This document shows positions 1,321-25,200 of a stretch of 64,000 bases of DNA, piece by piece. The position numbers and the translations under genes are program-made. Numbering within the stretch: position 1 is the first letter of the stretch; every line of letters begins with the position of its first letter. The notes below the pieces were generated by a model that ran no database searches, had not been told where the DNA came from, and saw nothing but the letters and a program-made list of their open reading frames with translations. The stretch is from Verrucomicrobiia bacterium (GTDB lineage: Bacteria; Verrucomicrobiota; Verrucomicrobiia; Verrucomicrobiales; DEV007): contig JAUIAH010000025.1 in the NCBI GenBank assembly GCA_030425385.1, positions 1 through 64,000 of the forward strand. Reading direction: 5' to 3'.

Positions 1321-2340
1321 ATGATTACAACCGAACAACGTGCGGATGCATACGTCCGCAAAGTTTTGGAAGGTTTCCCTGGAGAAGGCTCGGGGCTTCA
1401 TCCCTGGCTCTACAGCGCCGCTGCTAGCATCTCACCATTCTTCGCCAGTGAGCGTGACGTCGAAGTGGCGATTTATCAAGCGATTGCTGGGAGCCTAACA
1501 GAGGGTCGCCGACGCACTATTCCCCGAGAGATCAGGGATGCCGCCCGAAACGGCAGAACAATAGGAAAGGCGCCTGATTGGTATCTCGCAGCGAAAGGCG
1601 AACCAATAAAGACCGATGCAACTCCAACACTTGGGGAAGTTGGCCCACAGTGGCCCCGCAAGAATTATAAGCGCATCCTTGAGCTAGTCACAGCAAACCC
1701 TTATCCGCTGGCAGAGGTGGCGAAGCACTCCCCGGTTCCTATTCAGGAATCACGCATGGCCGAGACTGCTATCGACGCACTCTTTCCAGGGAACCCTCTG
1801 TTGTGTGTCGCTAAGGCAGCGAATAAACACCACACGGCTTCCCGCTCGGAATGGAGAGGCAGGTTGTCAGAGCTTCCTCTGATCGTCCCTAACGCAATGT
1901 CTGCCGTCTGGGGTAACAAGGACACTGGAGGTCGCTCGATGCGCTGCAACGGCAACGTGGGAGCGCGACGCTACCTCGTGATCGAATTCGATTTCGCAGC
2001 AGATGACCGAAATGGGAAACCTACCTACGATATTGAATTGTTAGACCGGATCAGGGCAATGGGTCTGACAGTGGCTGACCTTTGCTCAAGCATCATCTGC
2101 GAGCTGCAATTTGGAGCGCCAGAAATTCGGTTGGTTACTTCAAGCGGTGGGAAGTCTCTCCATTCGTGGTGGGACTGCGAGGGCTTAACCGAGACCCAAG
2201 TCGAGGAGTTCTTTAAGGATGCCTGTTCGCTTGGGGCTGATCCTGCCACCTGGACGCGATGTCAGTTAGTGAGGATCCCCGACGGGACACGAGAGAATGG
2301 AACGCGCCAGCAACTTCACCTTTTCAACCCGACGCAATGA
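1321..2340 (+). CDS. Primase-like protein of an integrated element
   Basis: The 339-residue protein has an N-terminal helical part (1-130) and a C-terminal part resembling mobile-element primases of the archaeo-eukaryotic type. RYLVIEFDF supplies acidic metal-binding positions, TSSGGKSLHSWWDCEG gives the SGGKxxH-type nucleotide-binding segment, and RCQLVRIPDGTRENG is typical of primases that precede RepA-like helicases. The stop overlaps the next start by 4 bp (ATGA at 2337-2340), indicating translational coupling. Family knowledge suggests it primes replication of an integrated or formerly autonomous element. Catalytic assignment is by eye, so the exact primase family is uncertain. Confidence 0.65.
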   Translation: MITTEQRADAYVRKVLEGFPGEGSGLHPWLYSAAASISPFFASERDVEVAIYQAIAGSLTEGRRRTIPREIRDAARNGRTIGKAPDWYLAAKGEPIKTDATPTLGEVGPQWPRKNYKRILELVTANPYPLAEVAKHSPVPIQESRMAETAIDALFPGNPLLCVAKAANKHHTASRSEWRGRLSELPLIVPNAMSAVWGNKDTGGRSMRCNGNVGARRYLVIEFDFAADDRNGKPTYDIELLDRIRAMGLTVADLCSSIICELQFGAPEIRLVTSSGGKSLHSWWDCEGLTETQVEEFFKDACSLGADPATWTRCQLVRIPDGTRENGTRQQLHLFNPTQ

Positions 2341-3518
2341 ACGAAGCGAACAACAATTATGGTAGGGATTGCGACGGGAACCTGATGCCGCGCCAAAGGA
2401 CTCCAGAGGCCGCTATCAAGAGCATGATAAGCGAAGTCGAGAGAGCTTTCAGGGCCGGCAAGCAAGACGAGGTATCCCTTTTCCTCGATCAACTAGCCAA
2501 GACTCACCGAAAGTATTATCAGCGGCCTTCGGAGCCGCTTGTTGAATTTCGCAAGCCAAGCGAGCTCGCCAATTTCGTGCCGCCCGATGGCTGGAATTTG
2601 GTTGGCGACCACCACATTCAGCGAGGGGCACCCTTCGTCATTGCGGGGGCTCCCGGTTGTGGGAAAAGCCGTGTTCTGACAGGACTCGCCATCGCTGGGA
2701 CCACTAGGGAAGATTGGATGGGGCTCCCTGTTCATTCGCAATTCCGAACCATGATTATTCAATGCGAGAATGGTCCCGTCAGACTGGCTAGTGAGTTGCG
2801 CGACGTTGTGAAGCCTGAATTTGATGAGTGGATACGTATTACGCCGCCGCCTCCACTAGGGTTCGCTTTCGACGAGCCTTCCTTCTGCGATGATCTGAAA
2901 GATCAGATTGCCAAATTTGGGCCCGACATCGTGGCCGTAGACCCCTGGAACCGCGTTGCTGCTGATGACAAGGGCAGGGATTACAAAGAAGCGTTTGAGA
3001 AGCTGCTAGCCATCCTCCCAACGGGCGACCGTACACCGGCACTTGGCATCGTGAGCCACACAAGGAAACCGAAGCACGACGAGCGGACGAGCGGACGAGG
3101 ACTGATGAACACGATCGCGGGTTCATACGTAATCGCATCTGTGCCAAGAACCGCGTTCGTTCTTCAAGCAGCAAGTGATGATACCGAGGATGCCCGTGTG
3201 GTCTGGACATGCTGCAAGAACAACGATGGCGAACTTGGGGCACGTAGCGCCTGGGAACGTCAGAACGGCTTGTTTTCCCCGGTGGAGGACTTCGACTGGG
3301 ACACCTTTGATGACAGAGGCGAGAAGAAGGAAGGCCGCCGGGTTCTAAGTCCTGAACTCATTAAGGCGATCCTACGAGGGAACCCTAAGGGATTAACGAA
3401 GGGCGAGCTTGTCCATGAGTTGGTAGATACACACGGATTCGGGAAAACTGCCGCATACGGCAAGATCAAAGAGCACGCTAAGTTGCTCACGGAGAAGAAC
3501 GGGAGGCTCTATGCCTGA
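2337..3518 (+). CDS. RepA/KaiC-like AAA ATPase (replicative helicase of a mobile element)
   Basis: The 393-residue P-loop ATPase has Walker A GAPGCGKS at about residues 104-111 and Walker B-like PDIVAVDPW at about 198-206. A RecA-fold core follows, with GIVSHTRKP and SGRGLMNTIAGSYVIAS as later motifs. The C-terminal ~50 residues (KGELVHELVDTHGFGKTAAY) form a winged helix. This is the architecture of RepA/DnaB-like hexameric helicases encoded beside primases in plasmids and integrative elements. The ATG at 2337 overlaps the primase stop and is preferred over an upstream in-frame start at 2259. Directly downstream lies a cluster of TTCCG/CGGAA repeats that could be its origin. Confidence 0.8.
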   Translation: MNEANNNYGRDCDGNLMPRQRTPEAAIKSMISEVERAFRAGKQDEVSLFLDQLAKTHRKYYQRPSEPLVEFRKPSELANFVPPDGWNLVGDHHIQRGAPFVIAGAPGCGKSRVLTGLAIAGTTREDWMGLPVHSQFRTMIIQCENGPVRLASELRDVVKPEFDEWIRITPPPPLGFAFDEPSFCDDLKDQIAKFGPDIVAVDPWNRVAADDKGRDYKEAFEKLLAILPTGDRTPALGIVSHTRKPKHDERTSGRGLMNTIAGSYVIASVPRTAFVLQAASDDTEDARVVWTCCKNNDGELGARSAWERQNGLFSPVEDFDWDTFDDRGEKKEGRRVLSPELIKAILRGNPKGLTKGELVHELVDTHGFGKTAAYGKIKEHAKLLTEKNGRLYA

Positions 3519-14584: not shown

Positions 14585-15244
14585 TCAGGTGTGCCGAATG
14601 TCTTCGGCGGACTCGATGAAGATGGTGTCTTCGGCGATGTTGGTGGCGTGATCGCCGACACGCTCGAGCGAACGGACCATGAACATGAGGTCCAGGTAGT
14701 CCTTGAGCTTGGTCGGATTCTCCTCCATGCGCTTGCGGAGCTTCTTCACCAGGACATTGTGCGCATCATCTAAAGCGTCATCACGTTTGTCAACTTGGCG
14801 AGCACCTTCCAAATCATGCTCTGAGAAGGCTCGCACGCTCTCGTGGAGAATGCGTGCGGCCAGTGTGTAGACAGGCTCAATGAGCTTGGTCTCTGGGAGT
14901 TCGGGGTTCTTGAGCATCAACCGGGCGCGCCGCGCGACGTTGCCTGCTTCGTCGGAGACGCGTTCAATGTTAGTAGCCATCTTCATGGTCGAGACCACTT
15001 CACGCAGATCGCTGGCGACAGGATTGTAGAGGGCCAGAATGCGCAGCCCTTCCTGATCAATCTGTTTCTCCAGCTGATCCACGTCTTCATCATCGACAAT
15101 GGCCGCTTTGCAAAGGGAGTCATTGCGTTCTAGGAGGCCGCGCACGGCGTGTTCGAGATTCAACTCCGCCGTACTGGCCATCGTGATCACATCTTTGCGG
15201 AGTTTGTTGATGGACTCTTGGAAATCTGAGAGGATTTGCGTCAT
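14585..15244 (-). CDS. phoU: PhoU, copy 1 (phosphate signalling protein)
   Basis: The 219-residue protein consists of two PhoU three-helix repeats with the acidic metal-binding motifs (ATNIERVSDEAGNVAR around 90-105, and MVRSLERVGDHATNIAED in the C-terminal repeat). PhoU links the Pst transporter to PhoR/PhoB and limits phosphate uptake. The start is set at MTQILSDF (15244) by alignment with the second copy at 15815-16477, to which it is about 92% identical by my count (roughly 18 substitutions). It is separated from the rest of the pst operon by an oppositely oriented receiver gene. Confidence 0.93.
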   Translation of the reverse strand: MTQILSDFQESINKLRKDVITMASTAELNLEHAVRGLLERNDSLCKAAIVDDEDVDQLEKQIDQEGLRILALYNPVASDLREVVSTMKMATNIERVSDEAGNVARRARLMLKNPELPETKLIEPVYTLAARILHESVRAFSEHDLEGARQVDKRDDALDDAHNVLVKKLRKRMEENPTKLKDYLDLMFMVRSLERVGDHATNIAEDTIFIESAEDIRHT

Positions 15245-15409
15245 GGTTGGGTTTGGGAGGCTGTTCGGGCAGCGTGGCGTCTTCCGAGGTCTCCAAGTCT
15301 GCCCTTGCCGAAGCTCTCTTGTTTGCCAGGTTAAGCATGATGATGGCATCTTTCAAATTGATGAGCAGACGAAGTTCACGGCGTTCGAGAAAGGAGTAGG
15401 AGGCTGACC

Positions 15410-15790
15410 ATGGATTCTAACGCTTTCACGGTGCTGGTGATCGATGATGAACCCGATGTGGTGGATCTCATTTGCTTCAATCTGGAGTCCGGCGGTCTCC
15501 AGACGGATCGCGCCTTCAATGGGAAGGAAGGCTTTGCCCGCGCCTGCTCGACGGTGCCAGACGCCATTGTCCTGGATGTCATGTTGCCAGGACTGAATGG
15601 GTTTGAAGTCTTGAAGAAGCTTCGTGGGGATGTGCGCACGCGTGCCATCCCGGTCCTCATGGTCACCGCCAAGGCGGAAACGGGTGACCAAGCGGCTGGT
15701 CTTGAAGCGGGAGCAGACGACTATTTGACCAAGCCTTTCAGTCCGAAAGAACTCGTGCGTCGGATCCAGGAACTCCTGGCAAAGGCATAG
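15410..15790 (+). CDS. Receiver-only response regulator of PhoB type
   Basis: The 126-residue protein is a complete receiver domain and nothing more. It has acidic pair Asp12-Asp13, phosphoacceptor Asp56 (DAIVLDVMLPG), Thr86 and Lys108 (DDYLTKPF). Its sequence closely follows the receiver of the PhoB-like protein at 23296-23979 (shared IDDE.DVVDLICFNLE and PVLMVTAKAET), but the winged-helix output domain is absent. It lies divergently between two phoU genes. It could be a phosphate sink, an allosteric partner of PhoU, or an adaptor for a PhoR kinase encoded elsewhere. The stop is followed by 24 bp to the convergent phoU2 stop. Confidence 0.9.
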   Translation: MDSNAFTVLVIDDEPDVVDLICFNLESGGLQTDRAFNGKEGFARACSTVPDAIVLDVMLPGLNGFEVLKKLRGDVRTRAIPVLMVTAKAETGDQAAGLEAGADDYLTKPFSPKELVRRIQELLAKA

Positions 15791-15814
15791 GTTTAGCCCC
15801 AGAGACCTGTAATA

Positions 15815-16477
15815 TTAGGTGTGGCGGACATCTTCGGCGGACTCGATGAAGATGGTATCTTCGGCGATGTTGGTCGCGTGATCACCGACGCGCTCAAGTG
15901 AACGGACCATGAACATGAGGTCGAGGTAGTCCTTGAGTTTGGCAGAATTCTCTTCCATGCGTTTGCGGAGCTTCTTCACCAAGGCGTTGTGGGCGTCGTC
16001 GAGTTCATCATCTTGTTTATCCACCTGACGAGCGCCTTCCACGTCGTGCTCTGCGAATGCTCGGATGCTCTCATGCAGGATGCTTGCAGCCAAGGTGTAG
16101 ACGGGTTCGATCAGCTTCGTCTCGGGCACTTCGGGATTCTTCAACATGAGGCGCGCGCGGCGCGCGATGTTCCCGGCTTCATCGGACACTCGCTCAATGT
16201 TAGTAGCCATCTTCATGGTCGCCACCACCTCGCGTAGGTCACTGGCGACCGGGTTGTAGAGAGCCAGAATGCGCATGCCTTCCTGATCAATCTGTTTCTC
16301 TAACTGATCGACATCTTCATCGTCGACGATAGCGGCCTTGCAGAGAGAATCGTCGCGTTCGAGGAGGCCACGCACGGCGTGTTCAAGGTTCAGCTCGGCA
16401 GTGCTGGCCATCGTGATGACATCCTTGCGAAGCTTGTCGAGTGATTCTTGGAAGTCTGATAGGATGTGTTGAGTCAT
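15815..16477 (-). CDS. phoU: PhoU, copy 2 (pst operon)
   Basis: The 220-residue PhoU is the last gene of the pst run, 23 bp after pstB1. It has the same two-repeat helical structure and metal-binding motifs as copy 1 and an unambiguous start MTQHILSDF. The two PhoU proteins differ at scattered, mostly conservative positions, while the DNA shows many synonymous differences. That points to duplication maintained by selection or occasional gene conversion. Likely role: contact with the Pst ATPases and negative control of uptake and signalling. Confidence 0.95.
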   Translation of the reverse strand: MTQHILSDFQESLDKLRKDVITMASTAELNLEHAVRGLLERDDSLCKAAIVDDEDVDQLEKQIDQEGMRILALYNPVASDLREVVATMKMATNIERVSDEAGNIARRARLMLKNPEVPETKLIEPVYTLAASILHESIRAFAEHDVEGARQVDKQDDELDDAHNALVKKLRKRMEENSAKLKDYLDLMFMVRSLERVGDHATNIAEDTIFIESAEDVRHT

Positions 16478-16500: not shown

Positions 16501-17280
16501 TTAACCGTAGCGTCCTTGGATATACATGGCGGTCTTCTCTTCCTTTGGATTGACGAAGAGTTCGGCCGTCGGGCTGTGTTCCACAATCTCACCGAGATAC
16601 ATGTAGATGCATTCGTCGCTGGCCCGCTTTGCCTGCGCCATGTTGTGGGTGACGATAACAATGGTGAATCGGGCTTTCAACTCGGCGATCAATTCTTCAA
16701 TCCGCTCAATCCCGGCGGCATCCAGGGCCGAGCAGGGCTCGTCCATCAGGATGATTTGAGGTTTGAGAGGAAGCAGACGAGCGATGCACAGCTTCTGCTG
16801 TTGCTCGAGAGTGAGTCCAGTGGCACGACGCTTGAGGTTGTCTTTCACCGCGTGCCAGAGACCCACCTCCGTGAGAGCCTCTTCGACCATGGAATCGAGC
16901 GTCGATTTCTTGAGTTCTTTCCGAGTGGCATGGGAGCGCAAGCCGAAGACGACGTTCTCGTAGATGGAAATGGGCAGTGGATTGGGACGTTGGAAGACCA
17001 TCCCAACGTTCTTGCGAAGGGTCGCCGGCGAGACGTCTTCATCGAGGATGTTCTTGCCCAGGATCTTGATCTCTCCGGTGGTCTTCACGTTCCCGTAGCG
17101 TTCGTTGATACGATTCAAGGAACGGAGCAACGTCGTCTTTCCGCAACCGGAAGGACCGATAAGGGAGGTCACGATACCAGGCTTGATGTCCACCGTGACG
17201 TGGTGGAGTGCCTGGAAATCCCCGTACCATAGGTTGTAATCGTTTACGCGAATGCTGAACGCTTGTGTGTCGTCGGCCAT
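16501..17280 (-). CDS. pstB: PstB-like ATPase with degenerate signature motif (PstB1)
   Basis: The 259-residue ABC ATPase of the phosphate importer keeps Walker A GPSGCGKT (42-49), the Q-loop Gln97 (MVFQRPNP), Walker B IILMDEP (Asp180, Glu181) and switch His212 (VTHNMAQA). Its signature motif reads LTLEQQQK (156-163) where PstB normally has LSGGQQQR, so the Ser and both Gly are lost. Family knowledge: the signature of one subunit contacts ATP bound to the other. The adjacent PstB2 has an intact signature but lost its own Q-loop Gln and switch His. The two therefore look complementary. The gene follows pstB2 by 24 bp. Confidence 0.95.
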   Translation of the reverse strand: MADDTQAFSIRVNDYNLWYGDFQALHHVTVDIKPGIVTSLIGPSGCGKTTLLRSLNRINERYGNVKTTGEIKILGKNILDEDVSPATLRKNVGMVFQRPNPLPISIYENVVFGLRSHATRKELKKSTLDSMVEEALTEVGLWHAVKDNLKRRATGLTLEQQQKLCIARLLPLKPQIILMDEPCSALDAAGIERIEELIAELKARFTIVIVTHNMAQAKRASDECIYMYLGEIVEHSPTAELFVNPKEEKTAMYIQGRYG

Positions 17281-17304: not shown

Positions 17305-18057
17305 CTAACCGAATTCTCCGTTCAGGTAGCGCCCCGTGATCTCTTTGTCAGGGTTCTCGAAAAGCTTCTCTGTTTCCCCCCATTCGACGAGTTCGGAAGC
17401 ATTGAAGAAGGCGATATGATCGGCCATGCGTCTTGCCTGCTGGGTGAGATTAGTAACGAGGATAATGGTCATCTCATCTTTCAGTCCCGAGAGTACCTCC
17501 TCGATCTTCATGGTGGTGACAGGGTCGATCGCGATTGAGAACTCATCGAGGCAAAGAATCTCTGGATCGAGCGAGAGTGCTCGTGCTAGGGTAAGGCGTT
17601 GCTGCTGGCCACCGGAAAGCTTCGTGCCTAGCATCTGCAGCCGGTCTTTCACTTCATCCCAGAGGACTGATTGCTTCAGGCAGCGCTCGACGATTTCATC
17701 CAATTCCGCTTTCCCCGAAATCCCTTGGCGCCGTGGACCGTAGGCCACGTTGTCATAGATCGACATGGGAAGTCCCACCGGGAGTGGGAATACCATGCCG
17801 ATGCGCCGTCTCAGCGCGTAGACATTGTTCATCTCATTGACGTCTTCCCCCGAGACGAGAATCTTGCCATCGACTTTCGTCCCAGTGATGAGGTCAATGG
17901 TGCGATTGATGCACTTTAGAAAAGTTGTCTTTCCGGAGTTCGCGGGACCGACGATGCTAAAGACCTCTTTCTCTTTGATCTCCAGATCAATATCGTCGAG
18001 GGCGATGTCTTGGCCGTAGCGGACGGTGACATTATTAAACTCAATATGAACGCTCAT
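17305..18057 (-). CDS. pstB: PstB-like ATPase with degenerate Q-loop and H-loop (PstB2)
   Basis: The 250-residue ABC ATPase has Walker A GPANSGKT (37-44), a canonical signature LSGGQQQR (147-154) and Walker B acidic residues (LCLDEF, Asp171-Glu172). The Q-loop Gln is replaced (MVFPLPVGLP, Pro91), the usual Pro after DE is Phe173, the D-loop is altered (SIAIDP), and the switch His is Asn203 (VTNLTQQA). Alone it should not form competent ATP sites, but its signature could complete the site on PstB1. It is in the middle of pstS-C-A-B2-B1-phoU, 26 bp after pstA. Deposited annotations would probably call both genes simply pstB. Confidence 0.93.
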   Translation of the reverse strand: MSVHIEFNNVTVRYGQDIALDDIDLEIKEKEVFSIVGPANSGKTTFLKCINRTIDLITGTKVDGKILVSGEDVNEMNNVYALRRRIGMVFPLPVGLPMSIYDNVAYGPRRQGISGKAELDEIVERCLKQSVLWDEVKDRLQMLGTKLSGGQQQRLTLARALSLDPEILCLDEFSIAIDPVTTMKIEEVLSGLKDEMTIILVTNLTQQARRMADHIAFFNASELVEWGETEKLFENPDKEITGRYLNGEFG

Positions 18058-18083: not shown

Positions 18084-18998
18084 TTACCACTTCTTACGAG
18101 AGCGCAAGAAGATCCGCAGGGTGATGGAAAAGCTATTGATCAGAAGGATGAGGGCAATCAGCACCGCGGCGGTTCCATATTTCATCTCTTCGGGCATGCC
18201 ATGGATCTTCTCTGCAACGACATGCAAGTGATAGGAAAGAGCCATGAAACGATCGTCGAGTTCGTATGGCATCAGCTTATCGCCGAGGGAATTCATACGC
18301 ACGGCCACGGACGCCGCGGCGCCCGTGAAGAGGATGGGAGCGGTTTCCCCGGCGGCGCGCGAGATCTCTAGAATGACGCCGGTAAGGATCCCTGAAATAG
18401 AGTTCGGCAAGACGATGGTGCGAATGGTCTGCCACTTGGATGCGCCCATGTTCCAACACGCTTCGCGAAAAGCCATGGGCACGGCTGCCAATGCTTCGCG
18501 CGTGGCGGTCACGATCACGGGGATCGTCATGACAGCGATCGTGCAGGCTGCGGAAAGCAAGCAAGCGCCCATATTAAGCGTGAGCACAAAGGCACCCACT
18601 CCGAAGAGGGCGTGCACAATACTCGGAACACCTGCGAGGCTCGTAACCGCCATATTGATCACGCGAGTGAACCAATTGTTCGGAGCGTATTCATTGATAT
18701 AGATCCCAGCGAGAATGCCGACGGGAGCGACGATCACGAGGGAAACCAAGACGAGATAGAAGGTGCCAATGAGAGGCAGCCAGATGCCTCCCTCTTTCCC
18801 GCGATTGGTTGGGGATTCCCAAATATAATCCCACGAGAGGACGGGAGCTGCCTTATGGAATAGATGAAAGAGAATTCCGAAGACAGGAATGATGAGCAGA
18901 ATCGCCATGCCGAACATGAGCCATTTGACAATGGACTCGACACGCGTCTTGCGTTTCTCGACAGCGGAGGGCTTGAAAGGATTAGAAGCGGCTTCCAT
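18084..18998 (-). CDS. pstA: Phosphate ABC transporter permease PstA
   Basis: The 304-residue inner-membrane permease has about six hydrophobic segments, beginning VKWLMFGMAILLIIPVFGIL. The cytoplasmic EAA loop REACWNMGASKWQTIRTIVLP docks the ATPases. ISRAAGETAPILFTGAA is the typical PstA motif. With PstC it forms the translocation pore for phosphate. The spacing is 37 bp from pstC and 26 bp to pstB2. Permeases that pair as PstC/PstA give each ATPase a different docking loop, which fits an ordered ATPase heterodimer. Confidence 0.95.
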   Translation of the reverse strand: MEAASNPFKPSAVEKRKTRVESIVKWLMFGMAILLIIPVFGILFHLFHKAAPVLSWDYIWESPTNRGKEGGIWLPLIGTFYLVLVSLVIVAPVGILAGIYINEYAPNNWFTRVINMAVTSLAGVPSIVHALFGVGAFVLTLNMGACLLSAACTIAVMTIPVIVTATREALAAVPMAFREACWNMGASKWQTIRTIVLPNSISGILTGVILEISRAAGETAPILFTGAAASVAVRMNSLGDKLMPYELDDRFMALSYHLHVVAEKIHGMPEEMKYGTAAVLIALILLINSFSITLRIFLRSRKKW

Positions 18999-19035: not shown

Positions 19036-19971
19036 TTAGGCCTTATCCGCTTTGAAGCCTTTGATGATCAAATCGGAGACCACATTGATCACCACACTGA
19101 TCGTGAGCAAGACAATGCCGACGATGAACAGGACCTGATAGTGCTCGCCGCCATTGACGGCTTCAGGCATTTCACCGGCGATGGTTGCGGTCAGGGCTTT
19201 GACGCGCTCTAGCAAGAGCATGGGATCGAAGAAGTTTTCCGGAATGTTATCGGTGCCTCCAGAGGCCATCCACACGGCCATGGTTTCCCCCACTGCGCGT
19301 CCCACGCCTAACATGCAGGCGGCGAGGAGGCCGTTCTTGGCAGCGGGAAAGAGTACTCGATAGATCATTTCCCATTTGCTCGCTCCCAGGGCAAGGGAGG
19401 CTTCCCGATAAGAGTCGGGCACGGCTCGGAGAGCGTCTTCAGATATGGAGACGATGAGAGGAACGGCCATCAGGCCAACCACGATACTGGCATTGAGCAA
19501 ATTGACGCCCACGGCCACGCCGAAGACTTTCTGGATGATTGGCCCCATGATGACCAGGCCGATGAATCCCCAAATAATCGATGGGATCGCGGCGAGAAAT
19601 TCGATGAGAACCTTGAGCGTTTCTTTCAGCTTAGGGGTGGCGAATTCGGAAATATAAACCGCGGAGCCCAGGCCAAGGGGGACGGCAATAAACATGCTGA
19701 CCACCGTGATGGCCAAGGTGCCATACATGATCCCCATGGCTCCATAGGTGGGCTCATTGCCCTCCGCCGGAACGGGGATCCAGCGATGAGAGAAGAAGAA
19801 TTCCCCCCAATTCAGCGTGAGGGGTGCGGGCCACGATTCTTTGAGAATAAAGATAAAGATGGCCGCGACAAAGATGATCGAACTCCAGCCGCAAAGCGTG
19901 ATGAGCCATTGAATGGGCTTCTCGGCTTTATCGAGAAAGGCACCAAGTTTAGCTTGGGACTTGCGAATCAT
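19036..19971 (-). CDS. pstC: Phosphate ABC transporter permease PstC
   Basis: The 311-residue permease has about six membrane segments and the EAA loop YREASLALGASKWEMIYRVLFP. Phosphate-permease motifs LGVGRAVGETMAVWMASGG and FLAAIPSIIWGFIGL are present. The ATG at 19969-19971 is used; an in-frame TTG at 19980 would add three residues. It is the second gene of the operon, 62 bp after pstS. It pairs with PstA. Confidence 0.95.
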   Translation of the reverse strand: MIRKSQAKLGAFLDKAEKPIQWLITLCGWSSIIFVAAIFIFILKESWPAPLTLNWGEFFFSHRWIPVPAEGNEPTYGAMGIMYGTLAITVVSMFIAVPLGLGSAVYISEFATPKLKETLKVLIEFLAAIPSIIWGFIGLVIMGPIIQKVFGVAVGVNLLNASIVVGLMAVPLIVSISEDALRAVPDSYREASLALGASKWEMIYRVLFPAAKNGLLAACMLGVGRAVGETMAVWMASGGTDNIPENFFDPMLLLERVKALTATIAGEMPEAVNGGEHYQVLFIVGIVLLTISVVINVVSDLIIKGFKADKA

Positions 19972-20033
19972 GATCGGCAATGAATAGCGAGAGCGCTCGC
20001 CTGCGGCTGGAGTTCGATGGGATAGCGTTGGGT

Positions 20034-20912
20034 TTAGTTGCTGAGAGGGACGAAGTCCTCATCAGCCAAGATCTTCTGACCTTCTGGGCCTTTGATCCAA
20101 TCCATGTATTCTTTCACCACGCCGGTAGGCTCACCGAGCGTGTAGATGTAGAGCTTCCGAGCAATGGGATAATCGCCAGAACCGACCGTTTCATTGCCTG
20201 GTTCGAAGGCTTGTCCTCCGTCCGTCTTGCTCACGGCAAGCCAGCCGACTTCGTCATTCTTATAGCCCATGCCGCTATAACCAATTCCTGCAGGAACGGT
20301 CATGCATAGTTCGACCACGGCGGTGGATCCTGGCTGGGCGCCAGTGCCCGGTTTGAATTCGACACCTTTCCCGCACACGGCAGATTGGAAGAATCCGTAG
20401 GTTCCGGAACTGTTGCTGCGACCGAAGCGTTCGATTTGGAGGTCAGGACCGCCTACTTGGCTCCAGTTATCAATGGTGCCGCCTTCTGCCCAAATCTCTT
20501 TCAGCTGAGGGAGTGAGAGGCTTTTGACGGGATTGTCTGGATGGACATAAACGGCGATGCCATCGAAGCCCACGATGTGCTCCACAGGCGCGACGCCTCG
20601 AGCCGCCACGATGTCATTGATTTCCTTCTCTTTGAAGGAACGGCTCGCTTGTGCGAAGTCGGTCGTACCATTGATCATGGCCGTGACACCGGTGCCCGTG
20701 CCTTCGCCGTTCACGGTGATGAGCACATCTGGGTGCTTCTCTTGATAAGCTTCTGACCACGCCAGGCCGACTTGAAGCATGGTGTCTGAACCGTTGACCG
20801 TGATGGTCTTCGTGTCAGCATCGTCGCCACCTCCACAAGAGGCAAGACTGAGCACGAGGCTGATCGTGAGGGCACCTTGAGCGCCCAGTTTCATTAGAGG
20901 AGTTATCTTCAT
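20034..20912 (-). CDS. pstS: Phosphate-binding lipoprotein PstS
   Basis: The 292-residue precursor has a signal peptide ending in the lipobox LASC (Cys at about 27), then a periplasmic phosphate-binding protein. Conserved stretches are NGSDTMLQVGLAWSEAY, DFAQASRSFKEKE and IERFGRSNSSGTYGFF, the Ser-Gly-Thr loop that binds phosphate. It captures phosphate for PstCA. It is first in the operon and is divergent from the porin gene. The 287-bp gap carries two Pho-box-like repeats, so control by the PhoB-type regulators nearby is likely. Confidence 0.95.
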   Translation of the reverse strand: MKITPLMKLGAQGALTISLVLSLASCGGGDDADTKTITVNGSDTMLQVGLAWSEAYQEKHPDVLITVNGEGTGTGVTAMINGTTDFAQASRSFKEKEINDIVAARGVAPVEHIVGFDGIAVYVHPDNPVKSLSLPQLKEIWAEGGTIDNWSQVGGPDLQIERFGRSNSSGTYGFFQSAVCGKGVEFKPGTGAQPGSTAVVELCMTVPAGIGYSGMGYKNDEVGWLAVSKTDGGQAFEPGNETVGSGDYPIARKLYIYTLGEPTGVVKEYMDWIKGPEGQKILADEDFVPLSN

Positions 20913-20974
20913 GGTGTTTCGTTGAACTGTGGGGCCGAATCTGAAGGAAAAGTCAGATGAGGCGAGATTGCCTG

Positions 20975-20993
20975 AGTGACAGTATCGTCACAG
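20975..20993. promoter_or_regulatory. Pho-box-like element (GTGAC-N6-GTCAC)
   Basis: The stretch 20975-20993 contains GTGAC and GTCAC separated by six bases (AGTATC). The 11-bp period is that of PhoB half-sites. It lies between the divergent pstS and porin genes, 63 bp from the pstS start. A second, related copy with the same core TATCGT lies at 21088-21105. Assigned by resemblance only. Confidence 0.55.
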
Positions 20994-21087
20994 TCGTGGG
21001 AAACGGGCCTGCTAGAGGCGTTATGGGAGGCAGAAACGTCACAATGAGAGGTCTATAGAGCTCCAACACTCGTGAGAGCTTCATTTG

Positions 21088-21105
21088 TGTGACGGTATCG
21101 TGACA
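21088..21105. promoter_or_regulatory. Pho-box-like element (GTGAC-N6-GTGAC direct repeat)
   Basis: GTGAC at 21089-21093 and GTGAC at 21100-21104 form a direct repeat with an 11-bp period (spacer GGTATC), as in PhoB tandem half-sites. It is 95 bp upstream of the porin start. The core GTATCGT is shared with the element at 20975-20993. Confidence 0.6.
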
Positions 21106-21199
21106 ATGTGGGTGGCAGAAATGTTTCTCTTAATGCTTGCGAATCTGTCACAAAACGCGTTCCCATGGCCCTGCATATCTGACAACTTCGTAAGATAAG

Positions 21200-22489
21200 A
21201 TGAACCTGACTCCAACTCACTTCCTTAGAACGTCTGCCGTGTGCATTGCGTTTGGCACGGGCCTAGGGCCTCTCACTGCTGCCGAACCAGCAACGGACGC
21301 ACGCCTTCGGGCGCTAGAACATGAGCTCGGGCTGCTCCGCCAGGAGCTTGCCACGGAGCGCGCCGCGAAGGCACCACGCCCCACGGACTTCGTCGCGGGG
21401 GACTACACGCCAGCCCCTGTCTATGAGGATCCGGTCGACAGTGACGATGTCTTTGTGACTCCGAAGCAGTCGGCGGTCACTGAGTTGAAAGTGCGGGGTC
21501 GGATGCACTTTCAGTTTGGCTACTCGGAAGCGGATGACTATTCCGACTTCAGCACCTTTGAGTGGCGGCGGGTCCGTCTCGGGGTGAGCGGGAAATTGTT
21601 AGACGACTTCTCGTTTGAGATTGTGGGGAACTTTCTGCCTGATTCTGGCGCCACCAATCTCGAAGATGCCTACATCCGCTACAATGGACTCGATTGGACG
21701 ACCATCTCGTTTGAGAAATTGCGTCCGCGGTTCGGAGCGGAGTTGAACACCTCGTCCTCCAAGATCAAGACGGTGGAGCGTTCGTTGCTCTCCAACTCGA
21801 TGGACCCTGGCAAGATCACCGGGATGAGCCTCTTCGGGGACTATGGCCTCTTCAATTGGCAGGTGGGTGCCTACAACGGCGAGATTGGTGATCAGCGTAG
21901 TTCTGAGGAGACGGACTTCGGGAATGAGGGCGTTCCTGAGTATCTCTTGAATGCGAGCGTGGGACTGGATCTTTCCGAAACGGTTGGGCTGGATGAGTTG
22001 GCGTTGCGACTTGACTACATCTCTAACAATGACAACGACGGCATCGACCAGCGCTTTGGTCCAGAAGAGGCTTGGGCAGCGAGCGTGAGTCTCAGCACGG
22101 GTCCTTTCAGCCTCTTGGCTGAGTATGTCCAGGCAGACTACGATGGTGGTGGGGAGATCTCCGGGTTTTATGTGATTCCGAGCTACAAGTTCACTGACAA
22201 GCTTGAAGGCGTGCTCCGCTATGAAATGACGGAGGGAGATGATGGGGCTACCCTGCGTCATCAGAGTCGCTACGCCCGCCGGGTGGTGGCTTCTGATCCG
22301 GGCGTTCCCTCTGCCGGGAGCGTCAGAGGTGAGGAATACTGGGCCCTTTATGGTGGTGTGAACTACTACGTGAACAAGAGTTTGAAGCTCATGTTCGGGG
22401 TCGAGTATGCAGAACTTGATGACTTGGTGGGACGGAGCGGAAGCCTTGACACTTTGACAGGCTTTGGCGCGGTTCGCGTTGAGTTCTAA
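21200..22489 (+). CDS. Phosphate-selective porin (OprP/OprO type)
   Basis: The 429-residue outer-membrane protein has a signal peptide, a short coiled-coil (ARLRALEHELGLLRQELATE, about 35-55) that may anchor to peptidoglycan, and an OprP-type barrel. The beta strands begin at KVRGRMHFQFGYSEA and end at a C-terminal Phe (FGAVRVEF), typical of barrel insertion signals. STFEWRRVRLGVSGKLLDDF is the hallmark of OprP/OprO. Such porins import phosphate or polyphosphate under starvation. It is divergent from pstS and shares its Pho-box region. Confidence 0.9.
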   Translation: MNLTPTHFLRTSAVCIAFGTGLGPLTAAEPATDARLRALEHELGLLRQELATERAAKAPRPTDFVAGDYTPAPVYEDPVDSDDVFVTPKQSAVTELKVRGRMHFQFGYSEADDYSDFSTFEWRRVRLGVSGKLLDDFSFEIVGNFLPDSGATNLEDAYIRYNGLDWTTISFEKLRPRFGAELNTSSSKIKTVERSLLSNSMDPGKITGMSLFGDYGLFNWQVGAYNGEIGDQRSSEETDFGNEGVPEYLLNASVGLDLSETVGLDELALRLDYISNNDNDGIDQRFGPEEAWAASVSLSTGPFSLLAEYVQADYDGGGEISGFYVIPSYKFTDKLEGVLRYEMTEGDDGATLRHQSRYARRVVASDPGVPSAGSVRGEEYWALYGGVNYYVNKSLKLMFGVEYAELDDLVGRSGSLDTLTGFGAVRVEF

Positions 22490-22524
22490 CGCTTTTCATA
22501 GACTATCCCTTGATTAAGATTCGG

Positions 22525-23262
22525 ATGAGCGCAGCTTCCAAGCTGCGCTCATCTGCGTTCTGGTGTCTCGTTGGTGCCTTGATCCTGACAAACTGTCAGA
22601 CGCCTGTAGCGCGTGAGGATTCCGGCCCGACGAAGGTTCTCGCGTTGATCGCGATGGATGATCCATCTGGCAGCTTCGCTGACCTCGAATCGACCTTCGA
22701 GCGCAACGCCCGCGCGCTCACTAGCGTGCAACTCCACAGCAAGCGGATCGGCAGCATTGACGCGTTTCGGGAAGCGATCCTCGCTCATGCCCCCTTAGAT
22801 GTCCTCGTCCTCGCTTTCCATGGACGGCCTCATAAACTCCACCTCAGTGCGACCGAATCCATCCATCAGCGGAACGTGGCGGAGGTGTGCCAGGGGTTGC
22901 AGGGGGCATTCCGTCAGAGAGGCCACACCATTCTCTACGCCTGTCTCACCGGAGAAGGAGAAGACAATTTTGGGCAAGACCTGGCCTCTGCGCTGCGATG
23001 TCCGGTGACTGCTCCGCAGCATTTCTGGCTCATGCAAACCGCTCTCCCAATCACCGAGCGCACTCCCGAGTGGGTGCGCGACGACTCGGGCACGATCACG
23101 GTCGCGGTGGATCGCTTCTCTGATTTCTACAAGGATCGCTTCACGCCGACGAAAGACCGGTATCTCATCGCTCCCATCGCGATGACGTCTCTTTGTGAGG
23201 CGGACGGTTACAAGCGATTGTCGTCTCGATTTAGACTGCTTTTTAAAACATTCCGTTCATGA
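22525..23262 (+). CDS. Caspase-fold (DUF4347/CHAT-like) lipoprotein in the phosphate locus
   Basis: The 245-residue protein has a signal peptide with lipobox (LTNC, Cys24). The body resembles the caspase-like fold: VLVLAFHGRPHKLHL places His99 after a beta strand, and TILYACLTGEG places Cys140 at the end of the next, followed by GQDLASALRCPVTAP. That His/Cys spacing and the strand pattern match DUF4347/CHAT-type domains, by eye. The start is the ATG at 22525; a TTG lies 15 bp upstream. It sits between the porin and phoB on the same strand, suggesting co-regulation. Whether it is an active peptidase is unknown. Confidence 0.55.
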   Translation: MSAASKLRSSAFWCLVGALILTNCQTPVAREDSGPTKVLALIAMDDPSGSFADLESTFERNARALTSVQLHSKRIGSIDAFREAILAHAPLDVLVLAFHGRPHKLHLSATESIHQRNVAEVCQGLQGAFRQRGHTILYACLTGEGEDNFGQDLASALRCPVTAPQHFWLMQTALPITERTPEWVRDDSGTITVAVDRFSDFYKDRFTPTKDRYLIAPIAMTSLCEADGYKRLSSRFRLLFKTFRS

Positions 23263-23295
23263 TAAGGGGCGCTTTGCCGCGCGAGAAATTCTTTG

Positions 23296-23979
23296 ATGGA
23301 AGCTAACGCACACACAATCCTGGTGATCGATGACGAAGAAGACGTCGTCGATTTGATCTGCTTCAATCTGGAGAAGGATGGCTACGTGACGTTGCGGGCG
23401 CTTGATGGCCAGACGGGAGTGAACCTTGCTTGCCAGCATCGGCCGAGCGCGATCGTCTTGGATCTCATGCTGCCTGGCTTGGATGGCTTTCAAGTCTTCG
23501 AGGCCTTGCGCCAGGACGCGCGCACGCGCCACATACCCGTGCTGATGGTGACGGCCAAAGCGGAAACAGCTGATCGCATCGCTGGGCTGAAAGCAGGCGT
23601 CGATGACTACCTCACCAAACCCTTCAGCCCCAAAGAATTGGTGCTGAGAGTGAAGGCCCTTCTCAAGTGGGTTCCCGATCAAACGGGCATGGTGGTGGAG
23701 TCAGGGCCGTTCTATTTGGATAAATCGGCCCTCTGCTGCTACATCGATGGCGAGGAAGTGAGCCTAACATCGACGGAATTTCGCCTCCTGGCCATGTTAG
23801 TGTCGCGTGAAGGGGAGACGGTCACACGCGAGGATCTGATCGAGCACATTTGGGGTGCGAGTGGCAACCCCAGTAGCCGCTCCCTGGATACGCATCTCAT
23901 GCGCTTACGAGAAAAGCTAGGCGCAGACGCCGCCCTGATCAAGAACGTGCGCGGGAAGGGCTATCGCTATCACCATTAA
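23296..23979 (+). CDS. phoB: PhoB-like response regulator
   Basis: The 227-residue OmpR/PhoB-family regulator has a complete receiver (Asp12-Asp13, phosphoacceptor Asp56, Lys108) and a C-terminal winged helix (about 125-227) with LTSTEFRLLAMLVSREGE, the recognition helix region SRSLDTHLMRLREKLG and the terminal RGKGYRYHH. It is expected to bind the Pho-box-like repeats. The start is the ATG at 23296; an in-frame TTG is one codon upstream. No partner histidine kinase of the PhoR type lies in this window. Confidence 0.93.
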   Translation: MEANAHTILVIDDEEDVVDLICFNLEKDGYVTLRALDGQTGVNLACQHRPSAIVLDLMLPGLDGFQVFEALRQDARTRHIPVLMVTAKAETADRIAGLKAGVDDYLTKPFSPKELVLRVKALLKWVPDQTGMVVESGPFYLDKSALCCYIDGEEVSLTSTEFRLLAMLVSREGETVTREDLIEHIWGASGNPSSRSLDTHLMRLREKLGADAALIKNVRGKGYRYHH

Positions 23980-24528: not shown

Positions 24529-25200
24529 TTAGGAAGAGACGAAACGGTAACCTTTATTGCGCACGGTACGAATGGACTTCGCATGGTGTCCTAGCTTGAG
24601 GCGCAAACGTTTCATGTGGGTGTCGAGCGACCGAGAGGCGTTCTCTTCTTGTTGGTCCCACACTCTTTCCACCAGTTGCTTGCGCTCAATCGTTCTCTCA
24701 GGGTGCTCTAATAGCAGTGACAATATCTTGAACTCGGTGGCGGTGAGTTCGAGCGGTTTCCCGCGAAGGTAGCAGCGAAGACCCTCACGGTCTAAGAGAA
24801 ACGGGCCGTTCCGCAATTGGCTTCTAACAATGGCTGATCGTCTCAAGAGTCCTTGTACTCGCAAGGCTAATTCTCTGACACTGAATGGCTTTCCCAGATA
24901 GTCGTCGGCGCCCCGTGAGAGACCTTCAAGTCGATCCTCCAATTGTGAATGTGAGGATAACATGATGACAGGAATCATCCGCCATAGGCTATTGGACTTG
25001 ATTGTATCGAATACGCGAAAGCCGTCGACTCCCGAGACATCGAGATCGAGAACACTGAGATCAGGTGGAGCTTCTTCATTGACGAGCGCAAGCATATCCG
25101 TCGACAAGGCCCGATTGACGGAATACCCGACCTCGCTCAGATTGTATTCAATCAAGTCGAAGGTATCGGTCTCGTCAGCAATGACCAAGATGCGTTCCAT
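24529..25200 (-). CDS. OmpR/PhoB-family response regulator with altered receiver pocket
   Basis: The 223-residue regulator has a receiver and a well-conserved winged helix (LTATEFKILSLLLEHPERT...ASRSLDTHMKRLRLKLG...RNKGYRF). In the receiver the first acidic position is Ala8 (VIADE instead of VxDDE), so one metal ligand is missing. The phosphoacceptor Asp52 (SVLDLDVSG) and Lys in YLGKPF remain. Altered pockets can mean weak or absent phosphorylation. A GTGAC-N6-GTCAC element lies about 96-111 bp upstream of its start. It may be a second output of phosphate signalling; its kinase is unknown. Confidence 0.88.
   Translation of the reverse strand: MERILVIADETDTFDLIEYNLSEVGYSVNRALSTDMLALVNEEAPPDLSVLDLDVSGVDGFRVFDTIKSNSLWRMIPVIMLSSHSQLEDRLEGLSRGADDYLGKPFSVRELALRVQGLLRRSAIVRSQLRNGPFLLDREGLRCYLRGKPLELTATEFKILSLLLEHPERTIERKQLVERVWDQQEENASRSLDTHMKRLRLKLGHHAKSIRTVRNKGYRFVSS

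Follow-up and report, generated by a model that had tools for sequence, protein, structure and literature searches.

A candidate asymmetric phosphate importer with mismatched PstB ATPases, a duplicated PhoU and a stand-alone PhoB-type receiver

The region analyzed (positions 14585-16477) lies within a 64 kb stretch of DNA, referred to here as the window. Taken as a whole, it is best explained as the 3' end of a pstS-pstC-pstA-pstB2-pstB1-phoU operon encoding an asymmetric phosphate importer. In this explanation, which is considered reasonably likely, the importer would contain a PstB1-PstB2 heterodimer and would be accompanied by redundant PhoU proteins and by a receiver (REC) competing with PhoB or capping it. 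The doubling of the ATPases was already recognized in the original prediction, while the complementary breakage of their catalytic motifs was not noted there.

Gene order and complementary motif losses in PstB1 and PstB2

All genes of the operon are located on the reverse strand. The phosphate-binding protein PstS (20034-20912) and the permeases PstC (19036-19980) and PstA (18084-18998) score above the cut-offs of the NCBIfam models TIGR02136, TIGR02138 and TIGR00974, respectively. These genes are followed by pstB2 (17305-18057), pstB1 (16501-17280) and phoU_b (15815-16477), which encodes a protein of 220 aa, is the last gene of the operon and corresponds to the only phoU linked to pst in related genomes. 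The gene content and order resemble those of the canonical PstSCAB-PhoU system of E. coli, and PhoU also passes its NCBIfam cut-off. However, E. coli has a single PstB with all motifs, whereas the operon described here encodes two PstBs, each without motifs that the other keeps.

The Walker A (GPSGCGKT), Q-loop (Q97), Walker B (D180-E181) and H-loop (H212) motifs of PstB1 are intact, and its signature is LTLEQ (T157, L158, E159) at the place where E. coli PstB has LSGGQ. As for PstB2, the LSGGQ signature, Walker A (GPANSGKT) and Walker B (D171-E172) are kept; the Q-loop Gln is replaced by Pro (P91), the H-loop His by Asn (N203), and the D-loop SALD by IAID. In an alignment of nine PstB1 members, L158, E159, Q97, D180-E181 and H212 are invariant, and the same is true of P91, N203, IAID and LSGGQ in the nine-member alignment of PstB2. 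That the altered residues are fixed in both alignments points to selection maintaining the altered state and not to decay.

Neither protein reaches the cut-off of the PstB model TIGR00972 (343 bits, compared with 326 for PstB1 and 295 for PstB2), but this is still the best family for both, and the best PDB matches of both are PstB proteins. The closest named record for PstB2 comes from a Roseibacillus MAG (74%), in line with a probable placement of the genome in the Verrucomicrobiales. The single-chain model of PstB2 has a pLDDT of 75 and is weak in the helical subdomain. PstB1 and PstB2 are the sole PstB-class matches in this genome (E at most 1e-40), and the function of Pst must therefore fall to them.

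In ABC transporters, each ATP site combines the Walker A, Walker B, Q-loop and H-loop of one subunit with the signature contributed by its partner (PMC7756269). Since the sites are built across subunits and the losses are complementary, a PstB1-PstB2 dimer would have one complete and one doubly damaged site, and the altered signature of one nucleotide-binding domain (NBD) and the altered catalytic residues of the other belong to the same site. Because of the motif losses, either homodimer would hold no complete ATP site. By analogy with ABC biochemistry, PstB1 and PstB2 would pair as a heterodimer. The complete site, formed by Walker A, Q-loop, Walker B and H-loop of PstB1 together with LSGGQ of PstB2, would hydrolyze ATP, and the degenerate site, formed by the PstB2 P-loop (with the Q-to-P and H-to-N changes) and the LTLEQ of PstB1, would probably hold ATP as a structural latch. 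The PstB2 site keeps the Walker A Lys and the Walker B Glu and may retain some activity.

Distribution of the mismatched PstB pair

The PstB1/PstB2 pair was found in approximately ten related genera. According to a search with the signature pattern, 9 of the 75 genomes of the organism's own family contain the pair. In addition, six further pair-bearing genomes were identified in the phylum sampled at large, and the pair is also present in a Lentisphaerae record and a Pirellulaceae-labelled record. The complementary losses recur in every pair examined, these pairs coming from Verrucomicrobiota, Lentisphaerota and the phylum of a Bacteroidota-labelled MAG, with the reservation that the titles of MAG records may be wrong about the phylum.

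As a predictive test, a DNA pattern drawn from the PstB1 signature alone was applied to 395 genomes from the phylum of the Bacteroidota-labelled MAG. Seven genomes matched, one of them being the seed genome itself. All seven matches adjoin a PstB2 in which the Q-loop Gln is replaced by Pro or Ala and the H-loop His by Asn. In the overall sample of PstBs compared, pair members excluded, 76 of 77 keep Q, LSGGQ and H. The tree constructed with the FastTree program requires one origin each for the B1 and B2 groups (support 93).

A milder form of the pair was detected in the phylum of an Anaerolineales MAG, where a PstB2-like relative is present in 32 of 400 genomes at E 1e-85 or better. The motifs were read in 15 genomes; the PstB2-like protein has Ala in place of the Q-loop Gln and keeps LSGGQ. 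For the single fully read locus, the signature of the partner is LSLGQ.

It is quite likely that the pair belongs to a widespread importer lineage with a split-site PstB1-PstB2 heterodimer and a single hydrolytic ATP site. Import and PhoU-PhoR signaling in this lineage would proceed with one ATP hydrolyzed per closure, and the degenerate half would provide a latch or a signaling surface.

Other unusual PstB sequences were also observed. PstB-like proteins with an LSIGQ signature and a GLLxQ Q-loop are encoded at positions 1492-2247 of locus L214 and 1501-2259 of locus L216, and the corresponding genomes also carry an asymmetric pair. The PstB of a Clostridiales MAG (L112, 5944-6744, identical with L217) has Walker A Lys replaced by Thr, Q-loop Gln by Glu and Walker B DE by DR; a complete PstB is encoded elsewhere in the same genome (L212).

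The duplicated PhoU and the stand-alone receiver

Downstream of pstB1, two PhoU proteins with 92% identity bracket a receiver of 126 aa with intact phosphorylation residues, as was stated in the original prediction and is confirmed here by open reading frames, domains, identity and residues. Pfam domains of the three genes are PhoU, Response_reg and PhoU, in this order. The second PhoU copy, phoU_a (14585-15244, reverse strand, 219 aa), is known from this genome alone. Its start, aligned with other PhoUs, is the ATG at 15244, and the longer ORF of 254 aa represents an upstream extension. REC (15410-15790) is encoded on the forward strand, opposite to both phoU genes, convergent with phoU_b and divergent from phoU_a, from which it is separated by an intergenic region of 165 nt (15245-15409). 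Consequently, the cluster is not a single co-directional transcription unit.

A conserved module is not supported, since the phoU-receiver-phoU arrangement was sought without success among 57 genomes of relatives and at 80 loci taken from named genomes. These comparisons include incomplete drafts, in which absence is certain only where the contig continues. In the same-genus genomes G003 and G001, neither a receiver nor a second phoU is present in the 1.36 kb and 2.8 kb, respectively, beyond the single pst-linked phoU. Likewise, in other genera that possess this operon, phoU, where present, is single and has no receiver beside it at the loci seen. The arrangement is confined to one genome, which weakens the module idea by the criterion given with the original prediction.

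Both PhoU copies score above the cut-off of the TIGR02135 (phoU_full) model and contain two PhoU repeats; at the DNA level, their identity is approximately 82% over a 300-nt repeat. Comparison of synonymous and nonsynonymous changes between the copies, which was proposed together with the original prediction, gave dS 1.48, dN 0.043 and dN/dS 0.03 (Nei-Gojobori). Both copies are under strong purifying selection, with near-saturated synonymous sites. The same values (dS ~1.5, dN/dS ~0.03) rule out that phoU_a is a recent duplicate, an assembly error or a pseudogene. The distances of phoU_a and phoU_b to the single PhoU of G003 are nearly equal (pN 0.119 and 0.110). There are 17 differences over ~219 positions, of which eight are derived in phoU_a and five in phoU_b, the polarity of four being unassigned, and there is no strong rate asymmetry between the two proteins. 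Since both copies are old and constrained, redundancy fits better than specialization. Synonymous divergence falls in the last ~50 codons (pS ~0.4 vs. 0.7-0.8 in the middle of the gene), and partial gene conversion at the 3' end of phoU is possible.

Additional phoU genes were found in other genomes. G001 and G002, which belong to the same genus, contain a different, unlinked phoU (67-68% identical), and an adjacent phoU pair of independent origin, 44-46% identical to the PhoUs described here, is present in G026 of the same order (C34:19601-21070). These findings indicate that extra PhoUs arise repeatedly in this order. The two PhoUs would act as redundant negative regulators, in terms of dosage or separate expression, of the same transporter and kinase. 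Functionally redundant paralogues PhoU1 and PhoU2 have been described in M. smegmatis (PMC5741670, PMC12301784). The mycobacterial system is similar in having two such paralogues per genome, redundancy being predicted in the present case, and differs in that the copies described here are arranged in tandem, are 92% identical and have a receiver gene between them.

As for REC, it retains D12, D13, D56, T86, Y105 and K108, the full residue set of a single-domain response regulator. It matches only positions 4-121 of 226 of the PhoB family and lacks the winged-helix output domain, and the distance of 24 nt between the stop codons of REC and phoU_b leaves no room for a DNA-binding half. Within this genome, its closest relative is a full-length, porin-linked PhoB paralogue (23296-23979, forward strand), the receiver of which is 68% identical to REC. 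In the tree of PhoB receivers, REC grouped with four porin-linked PhoBs of the same genus with high support (100/99) and formed a long branch, the exact origin of which the tree does not fix. These results support the earlier proposal that REC is a phoB duplicate without the DNA-binding half; it derives from the PhoB of this genus and has been reduced to the receiver. With dN ~0.28 and dS ~2.2 (saturated) relative to PhoB, REC is constrained, yet it is evolving faster than the PhoB orthologues.

REC would compete with PhoB for phosphoryl groups or cap PhoB, and the phosphate-starvation response would be damped as a result. A redundant PhoU combined with a phosphoryl-competing REC would be the preferred reading of the PhoU pair and the receiver. 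REC could instead act as a dominant-negative form or modulator through mixed dimers with PhoB formed via the alpha4-beta5-alpha5 face, and not as a phosphoryl sink. The dimer face of E. coli PhoB is taken here to include R91, D100, D101, E111 and R115. D100, D101, E111 and R115 (E. coli PhoB numbering) are kept in REC, and its descent from the PhoB of this genus also speaks for mixed dimers, whereas the replacement of R91 by Gln would weaken one salt bridge; this mode of action is regarded as possible, though rather unlikely.

The receiver-only architecture of REC has partial parallels among known proteins. The single-domain regulator MrrA (PMC5964349) and the auxiliary receiver VieB (PMC4352251) are likewise described as receivers without DNA-binding output that act through phosphoryl flow or protein contact; REC differs from them in being derived from PhoB and in adjoining phoU.

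The regulatory regions were searched for Pho-box-like repeats with an 11-bp period. None was found in the 165-nt region between phoU_a and REC, where the best match was 7/12. Across the 64 kb window, the top two matches, both scoring 11/12 (GTGAC/GTCAC, 20976-21105, starting at 20976 and 21089), are located between pstS and the porin gene (20913-21199), and similar matches (10-11/12) are present upstream of the same porin in G001-G003. Pho-box control of REC is therefore not supported. Promoter and terminator scans near REC gave nothing above chance.

It should also be considered that phoU_a and REC may be chance remnants without a current function, as both were found in one genome alone and the region between them has no Pho-box-like repeat. 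Nevertheless, the PhoU pair evolves at dN/dS ~0.03 with near-saturated synonymous sites, and REC is intact, with all phosphorylation residues and a dN far below dS relative to PhoB, which makes this explanation improbable.

Several neighboring genes deserve mention. The porin gene, a gene for a 250-aa protein of caspase/CHAT-like appearance and the porin-linked phoB form a cassette (21200-23979) that is divergent from pstS and is kept in the same-genus genomes G001-G003. No kinase gene was present among the ORFs read beside this phoB; an adjacent phoB-phoR pair is located on contig 22, the sole such pair looked at. A further PhoB-like regulator (24529-25200) has Ala as the first residue of the acidic pair and Ser in place of the conserved Thr and may be impaired in phosphorylation. 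In locus L251, an adjacent PhoR-like kinase (2038-3129) has a PAS-like start and, judging by eye, apparently no N-terminal membrane helices.

Comparison with known transporters and significance

Solved canonical PstB entries (9k3x, 9k3s) contain two identical PstB chains each. The motifs of PstB1 and PstB2 do not correspond to this canonical form, a homodimer with two identical complete ATP sites, and one working ATP site per mismatched pair would apparently be unusual for a phosphate importer. Degenerate ATP sites are established in heterodimeric ABC exporters (PMC7756269). The heterodimeric or two-domain exporters TM287/288, BmrCD, TAP and Pdr5 combine a consensus and a degenerate site through complementary motif loss, as is predicted here from the sequence, and the Pdr5 signature LNVEQ resembles the LTLEQ of PstB1 (PMC7756269). 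In contrast to these exporters, the present system is a binding-protein-dependent importer, and its degenerate P-loop keeps the Walker B Glu and loses the Q-loop Gln and H-loop His. The importers RbsA and NupO also have one degenerate ATP site, but each is a fusion of two NBDs in which the second Walker A is missing (PMC11466899), whereas the predicted degenerate site described here would arise between two unfused PstB paralogues, which belong to a different family of importers.

Firmicutes with pstB genes in tandem have been described (PMC12096839), and for B. subtilis the PstBA and PstBB proteins have been modelled as a heterodimer (PMC11466899). The E. faecalis and B. subtilis systems are similar to the present one in having two adjacent pstB genes in the pst operon (PMC12096839, PMC11466899) and differ from it in that complementary motif loss is not reported in the accessible parts of these sources. 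A search of the open-access literature revealed no report of a degenerate PstB or of complementary motif loss in Pst.

The distinct, non-overlapping roles described for the tandem pstB genes of E. faecalis (PMC12096839) would be consistent with PstB1 and PstB2 forming two separate homodimers with different duties. However, the E. faecalis PstBs are presented there as likely ATPases with the usual motifs, whereas pairing of PstB1 with itself would leave LSGGQ missing, and pairing of PstB2 with itself would leave both the Q-loop Gln and the H-loop His missing. In addition, every pair shows the two sets of losses together, in complementary fashion, and separate homodimers are considered quite improbable.

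The side-by-side position of two PhoUs and two PstBs led to the earlier proposal that each PhoU is dedicated to one ATPase, with REC carrying the signal between PhoR and PhoU, but this is very improbable: the PstB pair long predates the duplication of phoU, and all other loci seen combine it with just one phoU, if they contain phoU at all; the two PhoUs, with their 17 differences and no strong rate asymmetry, are nearly equidistant from outgroups; and relatives of the same genus have neither REC nor a second phoU next to pst.

Of the results obtained for the PstB1-PstB2 importer and its neighbors, the PhoU duplication with the receiver is a smaller, strain-level curiosity, and the ATPase pair is the stronger one. 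In E. coli, phosphate signaling is tied to ATP-dependent conformations of PstB, and mutants in the PstB signature motif and Walker B were made to favor alternate transporter states and to test PhoR signaling (PMC5775613). A natural Pst importer with one ATP site given up would make it testable whether one or two hydrolysis events are needed per import and which of the two, closed dimer or hydrolysis, is sensed by PhoU and PhoR. If the proposed heterodimer is correct, the consensus/degenerate design would extend from exporters and fused sugar/nucleoside importers to a central nutrient importer of several phyla.
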